Shown piece by piece: positions 27,568-31,208 of a stretch of DNA of 64,000 nt (position 1 is its first letter; the number at the start of each line of letters is the position of its first letter). The position numbers and the translations under genes were made by a program. Below the pieces are notes generated by a model. That model was not told the DNA's origin. It ran no database searches and worked only from the letters and a program-made list of their open reading frames with translations. The stretch is from assembly GCF_019739195.1 (NCBI RefSeq), contig NZ_JAHHDS010000003.1:868001-932000 (forward strand), in the 5' to 3' direction. Origin of the DNA: Microcella sp. (GTDB lineage: Bacteria; Actinomycetota; Actinomycetes; Actinomycetales; Microbacteriaceae).

Positions 27568-28548
27568 CTAGCCCTGCTTGGCGTTGACCTCGTACGAGGT
27601 GTTCGTCGACTCGAAGAAGTTGACGAGCTGCAGGGTGTCGTTGGCAGTCGCCATCCACTTGGCCGGGTTCGACACGTTGTACTCGGTGTCGAAGCCGAGC
27701 TCTTCGAGGCGACGGTCGGCCAGGTACTTGACGTACTGGTTGATGTAGTTGGCGTTCAACCCGAGGATGCCGTTGGGCAGCAGATCGTGGTTGTACTGCT
27801 CTTCCATCTCGACCGCGTCGAGAATCATCTGGCGAATCTCGGCAGCGAACTCCGGCGTCTGCAGGTCGGGGTTCTCCTCCAGCACCGTGAGAATCAGGTT
27901 GATGCCGAACTTGAGGTGCAGGCTCTCGTCGCGCACGATCCAGTCGACGAGCGAGCCGAAGTTGCGCAGCAGGTTGCGCTGGCGGAACGACAGGGCGACC
28001 ATGAAGCCGCTGTAGAACCAGATGCCTTCGAGAATCACGTTGTAGGCGACGAGGTTGCGGATGAAGTCTTGCTTGCCCTCGGTCGTCGTGATGTCGAGGG
28101 TGTCTTGCGTCATGCGCGTGATGAACTTGACCTCGAACTCTTCTTTGCGTGCCATCGACGGCACGCTCACGTGCGAGTCGTACGCGGCAACGCGGTCGAT
28201 CGGAAAAGTCTCGAGCACGTATTCGAAGCTCATGCAGTGGTTCGCTTCTTCCCACATCTGCTTCGCGAGGTAGAGGTGCGCCTCGGGTGCATTGATATAG
28301 GGGTACACGCCGAACGCGAGCGCCTTGTTGACGAGCAGCTCGTTGGGGTTGAAGTAGCTCATCAAAAACGTGATGGCGTGACGCTCTTCGTCGGTCATCT
28401 TTTTGAAGTCGGCGATGTCTTCACCGAGCTGGATCTCGTTGGGGAACCAGGTGTTCGCGACAGCCTGGTCGTAGAGGTCCATGGCCCACTTGTAGGTGAC
28501 CGGCTTGAGCAGCAGGCCTTCTTGGATTCCGGTTCCGAGGATTCCCAT
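27568..28548 (-). CDS. nrdB: Ribonucleotide reductase beta subunit, class Ic (tyrosine-free)
   Basis: 326-aa ferritin-like R2 protein. Metal ligands align with a constant 19-residue offset to the Chlamydia class Ic enzyme: E70, E101, H104, E174, E208 and H211. The radical-tyrosine position is phenylalanine (F108 in EANHCMSF) and the first ligand is Glu rather than Asp, the two hallmarks of Mn/Fe class Ic proteins. The C-terminus FFESTNTSYEVNAKQG is the alpha-docking tail. It follows nrdA and the small CxxC peptide gene with 66 bp spacing. Supplies the one-electron oxidant for dNTP synthesis. Confidence 0.95.
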   Translation of the reverse strand: MGILGTGIQEGLLLKPVTYKWAMDLYDQAVANTWFPNEIQLGEDIADFKKMTDEERHAITFLMSYFNPNELLVNKALAFGVYPYINAPEAHLYLAKQMWEEANHCMSFEYVLETFPIDRVAAYDSHVSVPSMARKEEFEVKFITRMTQDTLDITTTEGKQDFIRNLVAYNVILEGIWFYSGFMVALSFRQRNLLRNFGSLVDWIVRDESLHLKFGINLILTVLEENPDLQTPEFAAEIRQMILDAVEMEEQYNHDLLPNGILGLNANYINQYVKYLADRRLEELGFDTEYNVSNPAKWMATANDTLQLVNFFESTNTSYEVNAKQG

Positions 28549-28614: not shown

Positions 28615-28710
28615 CTATTGGCAGCTCTCGCAGTGCAACTCGTCCATGGGGTCGATCGGAACCTCGTAGGTGAACGATGCGGTGCTGGTGGTGCTGGTGG
28701 TGGAAGTCAT
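28615..28710 (-). CDS. 31-aa peptide carrying the NrdA-type C-terminal CxxC tail
   Basis: Encodes 31 residues: a Thr/Ser linker (MTSTTSTTSTASFTYE) followed by VPIDPMDELHCESCQ. The CESC pair at the very end looks like the redox-active swinging tail that class I NrdA proteins normally carry, which the NrdA encoded here lacks. The ATG shares its A with the nrdA TAA (TAATG), so reinitiation after nrdA is expected. Alternatives: a -1 frameshift (programmed, or a sequence error) that would fuse it to NrdA, since the frame is open upstream. Too short for most gene callers. Confidence 0.65.
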   Translation of the reverse strand: MTSTTSTTSTASFTYEVPIDPMDELHCESCQ

Positions 28711-31208
28711 TACTCGGCCGCCTTCGCGGCGCCGCCGAAGCCGAAGCCCTTCTTGGCGGGAGCGCCCACAGGCGCTTCCGCCGACGCGCCAGCGCCGGTG
28801 TCGGCTTGAGCAGAAGAAACAGGGCTCGCCGCCCCGAAGCCCTTCTTCGGCGCTGAGCCCGAACCGGCGTTGATCGACTCCGACTTGTTGACCTTGACGG
28901 TCGACTGCTCGGCGGTGTGACGCGGCTTCATGTGCAGGTAGTAGGTCGTCTTCACGCCCTTCTTCCAGGCAGCGGTGTAGATGTCGATCATGTCGTCGAC
29001 GTCGCGCGTCTCGAGGTACATGTTGCGGCTGATGGCCTGGTCGATCCACTTCTGCGCACGGGCCGCGACCTCGAGGAAGGCGTAGGGCGAGAGCTGGAAG
29101 CTCGTCTTGTACGCGGCCTTGATGTCGTCAGGAATCGCGGCGATGCCCTGAATGTCTCCCTGGCTGCGCAGGATGTCTTCGCGCACCTTCTCCCACAGCC
29201 CGTGCGCCTGCAGCGCCGTGACCAGGTTGCGGTTGACCTCGAGGAACTTGCCCGAGCTCGTCGACCGGCTGAAAATCTGCGAGAACTGCGGGTCGAGACC
29301 CGGCGTGGTGCCGGCGACGAGACCGATGGATGCCGTGGGCGCGATCGCCATAAGCGTCGCGTTGCGCATGCCGCCCTTGACCTTCTCGCGCAGCGCATCC
29401 CAGTCGAGTCGCGTTGTGCGGTTGACCTGAACCTCGACGCCACGGTCGGCCTCGGTGAGGTCGATCGTGTCGAGCGGCACGAGGCCCTGCGACCAGCGTG
29501 ACCCAGCGAAGTTGGCGTACGAGCCGCGCTCTTGCGCGAGGTCGGCCGACTCGTCGATCGCCGCGTACGAGACGTGCTCCATGATCTCGTCGATGAGGTC
29601 GAAGGCCTCTTCAGAGTCGTACGAGTAGCCGAGCTTCTCGACGACATCGGTGAAGCCCATGACGCCGAGGCCGATCGCACGGTTGTTCTGGTTAGCGTGA
29701 TCGGCCTCGTCGACGCTCGACACCGTGATGTCGATGAGGTTGTCGAGCTGACGCACTGCGAGACGCGCGCTCTCATCAATCTTCGCCCAGTCGAGACCGC
29801 CATCGACGAAGTGCTGCGAGAGGTTGATCGACGCCAGGTTGCAGACCGAGATGTTGTCGCGGTCTTGCGGCAGGCAGATCTCGGTGCAGAGGTTCGACAG
29901 GTGGATCGTGCCGGTGTTGTTGTTGATGGCCCGGTTGTTGATCGTGTCTTTCCAGGTCAACCACGGGTGGCTCGTCGACTGCAGTGAGATGAGAATCTGC
30001 TTGAACTGCTCACGCGCACCGATCTTCTTGAACATGTGCAGCTCGCCGCGCTCAGCCATGGCGATGTACTCGGCGTAGCGGGTCGAGAACTCTTTGCCGT
30101 AGAGCTCGTTGAGGTCGGCGACCTCGAGCGGGTCGAAGAGGTACCAGTCGTCGTCGTTCTGCACGCGCTTCATGAACTCGTCGCTGATCCACACCGCGGT
30201 GTTGGCGGTGCGCGTGCGGCGATAGGGGTCGCCCGAGTTCTGGCGCAGGTCCAAGAACTCGGGGAAGTCCATGTGCCAGTTCTCCATGTAGAAGCACAGG
30301 GCGCCGAACTTCTTGCCGCCGCGGCTGACCGCGCGCAGCACCGAGTCGATCGTGTGCATGAAGGGGATCGGGCCGGTCGAGGTCGTGTTGTTCGAGCGGA
30401 TGGGCGAGCCCTGCGCGCGCAGCTTCGTGACGGCCAGGCCGATTCCACCCGTGCCCTTCGTGAGCCACATGACGTCGCGCACACTCTTGGCGATGTGCTC
30501 GATGTCGTCTTGCATCTCCATGACGAAGCAGTTCGACAACTGCGGGTAGCTCGTGCCGGCGTTGACCAGGGTCGAACCGGCAGCGAGGTACTCGAGCTTC
30601 GACATCTTGTCGTAGAAGGCGATGGCGTGCGTCGTGGGGTCGGCCTCGTTGAGCGAGAGGCCCATGGCGACCCGCATCCAGAAGTATTGCGGCGTCTCGA
30701 GCGGTTCGTTGTTGCGCGCCTTGATGCCGTAGCGGTTGTTGAGCGTCACGACGCCGATGTACTTGAGCAGGCCGTCGTTGGCGGGCTCGAGCACGGCGGC
30801 GAGCTTCTCGAGGTCGAAGAGGTCGGGAAACCGGGGGTCGAGCAGCTGCTCGTTGACACCGCGGTGAATGTAGGCCGAGAAGTGCTGCTGGTGCAGCTGG
30901 CGCAGCTCGTCGTCGGTCTCGTAGTCGCCGAGCACACGCTTGTAGATGGTCTTGAGCAGCAGGCGCGCGGCGACAACGTCGAACGCTGGGTCGTCTTTCA
31001 CGTTCTGCAAGGCGACCTGAATCACCGCTTCGTCGAGCTGCTGGGTCGAGATGCCGTCGAAGAGGGTGAGCTCGAGCTCGCTCGCGATCTGCGTGACCCA
31101 GGCGATCGAGTCATCGAGGTCGTGCGCGGCCTTCTCGATCGCCAGGTTGATCTTGTTCGCGTCGTACGGCTCTCGGGTTCCATCGCGCTTGACGACCGTG
31201 ATGCTCAC
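28710..31208 (-). CDS. nrdA: Ribonucleotide reductase alpha subunit
   Basis: 832-aa catalytic subunit reducing ribonucleotides. An N-terminal ATP-cone (VVKRDGTREPYDANKINLAI, about 5-24) provides allosteric control. The barrel shows the active-site cysteines in QLSNCFVMEM and HLSNLCTEICLP (thiyl Cys plus N and E), ISVCNLASINLSQ, and the radical-transfer tyrosines in KTTYYLHMKPR. The C-terminus is unusual: an Ala/Gly/Ser-rich linker with two KKGFG blocks ending AAKAAE and no terminal cysteines; these are on the next tiny gene. GTG start with GGGAGAG upstream. Leader of about 130 nt contains hairpins. Confidence 0.95.
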   Translation of the reverse strand: MSITVVKRDGTREPYDANKINLAIEKAAHDLDDSIAWVTQIASELELTLFDGISTQQLDEAVIQVALQNVKDDPAFDVVAARLLLKTIYKRVLGDYETDDELRQLHQQHFSAYIHRGVNEQLLDPRFPDLFDLEKLAAVLEPANDGLLKYIGVVTLNNRYGIKARNNEPLETPQYFWMRVAMGLSLNEADPTTHAIAFYDKMSKLEYLAAGSTLVNAGTSYPQLSNCFVMEMQDDIEHIAKSVRDVMWLTKGTGGIGLAVTKLRAQGSPIRSNNTTSTGPIPFMHTIDSVLRAVSRGGKKFGALCFYMENWHMDFPEFLDLRQNSGDPYRRTRTANTAVWISDEFMKRVQNDDDWYLFDPLEVADLNELYGKEFSTRYAEYIAMAERGELHMFKKIGAREQFKQILISLQSTSHPWLTWKDTINNRAINNNTGTIHLSNLCTEICLPQDRDNISVCNLASINLSQHFVDGGLDWAKIDESARLAVRQLDNLIDITVSSVDEADHANQNNRAIGLGVMGFTDVVEKLGYSYDSEEAFDLIDEIMEHVSYAAIDESADLAQERGSYANFAGSRWSQGLVPLDTIDLTEADRGVEVQVNRTTRLDWDALREKVKGGMRNATLMAIAPTASIGLVAGTTPGLDPQFSQIFSRSTSSGKFLEVNRNLVTALQAHGLWEKVREDILRSQGDIQGIAAIPDDIKAAYKTSFQLSPYAFLEVAARAQKWIDQAISRNMYLETRDVDDMIDIYTAAWKKGVKTTYYLHMKPRHTAEQSTVKVNKSESINAGSGSAPKKGFGAASPVSSAQADTGAGASAEAPVGAPAKKGFGFGGAAKAAE

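Follow-up and report, generated by a model that had tools for sequence, protein, structure and literature searches.

A putative detached redox tail of class I ribonucleotide reductase in Microbacteriaceae, with copies on plasmids and phages

Described split reductases and the Microcella locus

In class I ribonucleotide reductases (RNRs), the C-terminal tail is generally regarded as acting in a tethered state. There is a precedent for a detached redox C-terminus in the split class II RNR NrdJa/NrdJb of Pseudomonas aeruginosa, in which the catalytic core and the redox C-terminal cysteines lie on separate chains. According to the accessible portion of that report, NrdJb is responsible for thiol-disulfide exchange and is required in vivo, and the NrdJa core without the tail chain retains a low, DTT-dependent activity (PMC4520616). 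NrdJ is referred to as the only split RNR from a non-viral organism in the consulted part of Crona 2015. NrdJa/NrdJb belongs to the B12-dependent class II, and NrdJb, with 229 residues, is encoded in the same operon (PMC4520616, available sections), whereas the system described here is class I, has a tail of about 20-35 residues and extra unlinked copies, and is found on plasmids and phages too. A class I NrdA made of two cooperating polypeptides is known from Aeromonas phage Aeh1, but there one phage gene is split, in a region critical for function, by the insertion of a homing endonuclease, and the sections consulted describe no free mobile tail (PMC2988022, PMC3267527). Phages also carry auxiliary RNR genes, some of them split by introns, inteins or endonucleases; as far as the accessible text of PMC3653736 goes, these are subunits or pieces, whereas here the redox tail is carried alone or sometimes together with NrdB. 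Searches of the open PMC literature gave no report of a mobile detached class I tail.

The window, i.e. the whole 64,000-nucleotide stretch of Microcella sp. DNA that was analyzed, contains nrdA and nrdB with a small gene between them (Table 1). Pfam domains Ribonuc_red_lgC (8.8e-166), lgN and ATP-cone were identified in the window NrdA, and the ATP-cone, all-alpha and barrel domains of class I NrdA are present. Against NCBIfam it matched PRK06539 with 1623 bits and NrdJ_Z with 388.6 bits, below the cut-off of 399.95; judged from the family score alone and the presence of nrdB, it is not an AdoCbl-dependent class II enzyme. The RNR barrel family has one match in the entire window genome. Residues C227, N439, C441, E443, C456, Y756 and Y757 (L047 numbering) are invariant in the NrdA alignment A2, which includes P0001; we take these columns to be the catalytic Cys, Asn and Glu and the Tyr dyad. 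The C-terminus, ...KKGFGFGGAAKAAE, has zero Cys past the KTTYYL motif, so that the window NrdA chain itself lacks the C-terminal CxxC pair that 1737 of 2022 class I sequences possess in the portion of PMC9531940 consulted. The following 31 codons encode MTSTTSTTSTASFTYEVPIDPMDELHCESCQ, and the nrdA TAA and the peptide ATG have one base in common, an overlap that would suit termination-reinitiation coupling. No match to the window peptide was obtained in Pfam or NCBIfam at E 1 or in the PDB at E 10, and an Rfam scan of the window gave 0 matches. The window NrdB (Ribonuc_red_sm in Pfam, 7e-75) has its best PDB alignment with Chlamydia R2 and carries Phe at the radical-Tyr column, as in 1syy (the variant 2ani has Tyr); because Phe replaces the radical Tyr, it looks class Ic-like. 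The preliminary description of this DNA had read a cysteine-free NrdA end joined through TAATG to a 31-codon gene, and both its coordinates and its reading were correct. Its further proposal of a detached arm acting in trans agrees with the sequences, from which such activity may be deduced, but a detached redox C-terminus as such is not new, being known from the class II NrdJb.

Table 1. Features of the nrd locus in the window
Feature	Coordinates	Strand	Remarks
nrdA, large subunit of class I RNR lacking C-terminal redox cysteines	28710..31208	-	832 aa
Putative free-standing redox tail peptide gene, ...YEVPIDPMDELHCESCQ	28615..28710	-	31 aa; conserved family A1
TAATG, nrdA stop overlapping peptide start	28708..28712	-	sequence; offset differs among relatives
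nrdB, RNR small subunit, predicted class Ic-like	27568..28548	-	326 aa; downstream of peptide gene

Co-occurrence, conservation and origin of the peptide

Among 100 genomes of the same family, 45 contain a window-type NrdA (best E <=1.3e-194), 52 only weaker large-subunit matches of 26-32% identity, and three, which are 66-83% complete, none. The 31-residue peptide used as a query had matches at E <=1 in 50 of the 100 genomes, with a best E <=0.0012 in 45 and only >0.1 in five; the profile A1, built from 32 peptides, detected the peptide at E 0.01 in 45 of 100 genomes, with a total of 107 matches, of which one is weak. By query and by profile, the genomes with the peptide are the identical 45 that have the NrdA, and the remaining 55 are without both. 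We give no probability for this co-occurrence because the relatedness of the genomes would inflate any. Cys is absent from all 44 readable split NrdA tails (43 parsed tails and L017; G009, with a frame-broken nrdA end, was excluded). Most of the 45 genomes have several copies of the peptide: two in 28, three in 11, one in three, and four, five and six in one each. In the order-level sample, a same-family genome outside the 45 and without window-type NrdA contains a decayed tail relic, SCPVDSMDELNCDSCQ, bounded by stops (G324:C18:26842-26883, L345).

The free tail peptides, of about 20 to 35 residues, share the core YxVPVDPMDxLQC[E/D]SCQ-stop. In an ungapped comparison of the nrd-linked copies from 43 genomes, per-base identity is 79% over the last 17 codons, as compared with 33% for the 45 bases upstream and 28% for the 45 downstream. 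The pS and pN values of the 43 linked copies are 0.54 and 0.135 in the peptide frame, and pN exceeds pS in both other frames. Conservation of the mini-gene is thus far above chance, and purifying selection acts at the peptide level. Within the 17-residue core, Pro4, Asp6, Pro7, Met8, Cys13, Cys16 and Gln17 are invariant among the 43 linked copies, and the Tyr is found in 42 of them; the conservation script itself looked for this framework of residues with its CxxCQ ending, and 43/43 linked copies had it. The mini-gene had been described as a single gene; it is a real coding gene, but it belongs to a multi-copy mobile family.

The origin of the peptide can be traced to fused relatives. NrdA tails were read in 33 of 37 loci of other families (all except L101-L104), and 33/33 end in CxxC followed by Q, D or E. 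All 11 of the closest other-family NrdAs read have a homologous tail fused to them, ...CPVDPMEALQCESCQ, with a third cysteine; fused class I NrdAs of related Actinomycetota (L097-L100, L119-L125) are 68-74% identical, and differ from the split type by the covalent attachment of the three-cysteine tail. Of the 248 genomes in the order-level sample, 18 matched the A1 profile: that of the window, G324 with its relic, and 16 from outside the family, each of which has one match, inside a frame of 458-1098 residues at the NrdA place. The NrdA tree comprises 64 rows, of which 43 (from 42 genomes) are split, 11 fused and 10 far; its bootstrap is unsettled, 23 inner forks are open and the G015 branch is long. 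In this tree the split NrdAs form a single clade (100/98) nested in the paraphyletic fused ones. A tail-less clade within the fused NrdAs suggests one ancient event, and there appears to have been one gene fission in the ancestor of part of the Microbacteriaceae. A GF[G/A] motif lies 2-18 residues from the new end in 43/43 parsed split tails.

Unlinked, plasmid and phage copies

The peptide gene lies between nrdA and nrdB in 43 of the 45 genomes. The two others, G053 (100% complete) and G015 (98%, 0.93 Mb, one contig), have nrdA followed by nrdB without the peptide, one RNR large subunit each, and no Cys in the NrdA tail; the sole peptide found is elsewhere, on another contig or 33 kb off. Since G053 groups at 100/99 with G057, in which the linked copy is present, its loss of the linked copy is secondary. 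The sole peptide gene of G015 (L081) sits inside hadA-hadB-peptide-murB.

Parsing of 62 unlinked peptides placed 38 with hadA-hadB-murB, one per genome in 38 of the 45 genomes, and 24 elsewhere, some of the latter looking had-type, where the fetched stretch may stop too early; one more unlinked peptide, L303, was read by eye. The neighbors are MaoC-type dehydratase genes, which we presume to be HadA/HadB, and murB (Pfam). The profile also found a second copy in the window genome (G000:C3:1832073-1832153, L032), which precedes a 311-aa ORF and hadA-hadB-murB; the kinase match of this ORF (APH_6_hur, 17 bits) is weak and below the cut-off. At L019, L027, L295, L309 and L317 the tail motif ends longer open frames, perhaps as C-terminal tails of other proteins, and some copies may therefore not be free peptides. 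GTDB contigs yielded 333 pattern-matching stretches, 319 of them confirmed, in 79 loci; 69 of 81 peptides there are with nrdAB, and the script found no CxxCQ frame in L226. Carriers include Clavibacter, Salinibacterium, Cryobacterium, Microcella, Aurantimicrobium and Glaciihabitans.

Copies also occur on mobile elements. Plasmid matches (E limit 10, best 0.01) comprised 19 records from Clavibacter, Leifsonia and Gryllotalpicola, and the peptide was read in 4/4 of those opened. Five records in the phage collection represent three phages, Clavibacter phages CN1A and CMP1 and Pontimonas phage phiPsal1, and all three encode the peptide, a host-type metabolic gene on bona fide phages. No RNR large subunit was found in these three phages and four plasmids (7/7). 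A second phage query also gave Mycobacterium phage LilSpotty (two records, E 4, inside a tail gene), which was taken as chance. The IMG/VR pattern YxVPxDPMD retrieved 231 stretches, of which 217 were confirmed and 80 kept; a frame ending in CxxCQ-stop, which the pattern did not demand, is present in 80/80 kept loci, and the viral peptides have 20-38 residues with the start codon chosen by us. The 46 of these 80 records that were searched whole, and which may be fragments, contain no RNR large subunit. Terminase, portal, lysis or tail genes are near several viral copies, and 30 neighbor proteins scanned gave matches that include endolysin, terminase, portal, tail and DNA polymerase families; because the neighbors match such varied phage families, the phage carriers are diverse. 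Three of the viral records searched whole (L194, L207 and L208) have the peptide and an NrdB (84-85% identical) without NrdA, and L194 also has ThyX. A 316-aa ORF between peptide and nrdB (L194:6145-7095) looks Hint/intein-like by eye and has no Pfam or PHROG match. Near another peptide copy, a phage ORF (L203:1857-4652) matches PHROG 4291, 'RNA-dependent RNA polymerase', with 1237 bits. Annotation frequently misses the peptide gene: none of the five phage records has an annotated feature at its position, and the plasmid copy L076:3953-4054 appears as a gene of 102 bases under the name 'ribonucleotide-diphosphate reductase subunit beta' (WP_223361114.1).

Proposed action in trans and alternative explanations

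Homology to the fused tail, NrdAs without tail cysteines, co-occurrence, and genomes with only an unlinked peptide gene together point to re-reduction of NrdA by the peptide in trans. We consider it very probable that the gene encodes a separate, trans-acting redox tail which arose by one fission and was spread by mobile elements. Fission in a family ancestor would have cut NrdA past the (K/R)GFG linker, leaving NrdA with the catalytic core and without the cysteine pair. The free peptide, once translated, would dock on NrdA and reduce the active-site disulfide after each turnover by electron transfer, and thioredoxin or a similar donor would re-reduce the peptide. Once free, the peptide would have been open to copying into nrd-linked, had-linked, plasmid and phage copies, of which the plasmid and phage ones probably support the host RNR during plasmid or phage replication. 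We lean somewhat towards the view that any NrdA in the cell uses any peptide copy, be it from nrd, another operon, a plasmid or a phage, and that phages thereby possess, in about 25 codons, a minimal auxiliary metabolic gene that enhances host dNTP synthesis or takes it over in the absence of a phage RNR large subunit. With an arm apparently untethered in a whole bacterial clade, it becomes testable whether a tether is required, by what route the arm reaches the active site, and which residues mediate its docking. One catalytic piece of a near-universal enzyme appears to have become a mobile unit on chromosomes, plasmids and phages.

The preliminary description had offered a -1 frameshift or an artefact as the alternative. 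A programmed -1 frameshift, stop read-through or a sequencing error could join the two ORFs into an ordinary NrdA, and the -1 relation, also that of the window, is indeed the most frequent among the 39 parsed junctions of the 43 linked loci (30 junctions). However, five junctions are in frame with an intervening stop and four are at +1 (one of these in G009, whose nrdA end is broken and whose assembly is 86% complete), and the first possible start of the peptide may overlap nrdA by as much as 8 bases or follow it after a gap of up to 18. The four linked junctions outside the 39 are L017, L085, L093 and L330, of which L017 and L085 were read separately; that of L085 is in frame, with the first ATG 57 bases past the stop. 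The frame relation at the junction, which programmed frameshifting would conserve, thus varies, and therefore no single recoding event joins all. Moreover, no slippery heptamer was seen by eye in the final 30 bases of the window nrdA, the peptide gene is away from nrdA in G015 and G053, and the presence of the split in 45 genomes excludes a chance sequencing error. With three frame relations and unlinked-only genomes, joining is excluded as a general explanation, and we regard it as highly improbable. Relatives with one continuous nrdA frame, by which the split was to be refuted, do exist, but only outside the family, where they represent the ancestral fused state. An AlphaFold model of the read-through NrdA-peptide chain had a mean pLDDT of 45 and a pTM of 0.35 (ten-row alignment), too low to be informative.

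Other roles of a separate peptide have to be weighed against a redox tail. That the mini ORF only couples translation to nrdB or acts as a leader peptide would fit its position between nrdA and nrdB and its overlap with the nrdA stop, but has a negligible chance in view of the amino-acid conservation including CxxCQ and the stop, the phage, plasmid and hadA-adjacent copies that come without nrdB, and the two genomes without the peptide between nrdA and nrdB. Small, multi-copy and phage-carried, the peptide could also be an RNR regulator or inhibitor, like Sml1 or a phage takeover factor, instead of a reductant. We find this very unlikely, since the peptide is homologous to the fused catalytic tail and keeps both cysteines and the terminal Gln in 43/43 linked copies, and a regulator would leave the tail-less NrdA without a known reductant. 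What counts against the redox-tail reading is the conserved copy with hadA-hadB-murB, whose connection to RNR is not evident. That 38 of the 62 unlinked copies parsed are found there would favor a general small redox or metal-binding peptide serving several enzymes, RNR among them, an explanation that overlaps with the preferred one; it seems unlikely given that 0/55 genomes without window-type NrdA, taken irrespective of their hadA-hadB-murB content, carry the peptide.

Compared with the fused tail, the trans-acting tail that we favor has lost one cysteine (ACPVDP to YxVPVDP) and gained a near-invariant Tyr, and therefore the peptide may do something extra. The Tyr and Val at the place of the third cysteine of the fused tail are candidate docking residues. 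A mimicry of the NrdB C-terminus (NTSYEV) by the YxV of the peptide was considered and dropped, as NrdBs of the split clade mostly have NTSYES. The NrdB C-termini are mostly NTSYESNA in the split clade and mostly NTSYEVNA in the fused relatives read, a change that possibly co-occurred with the fission.
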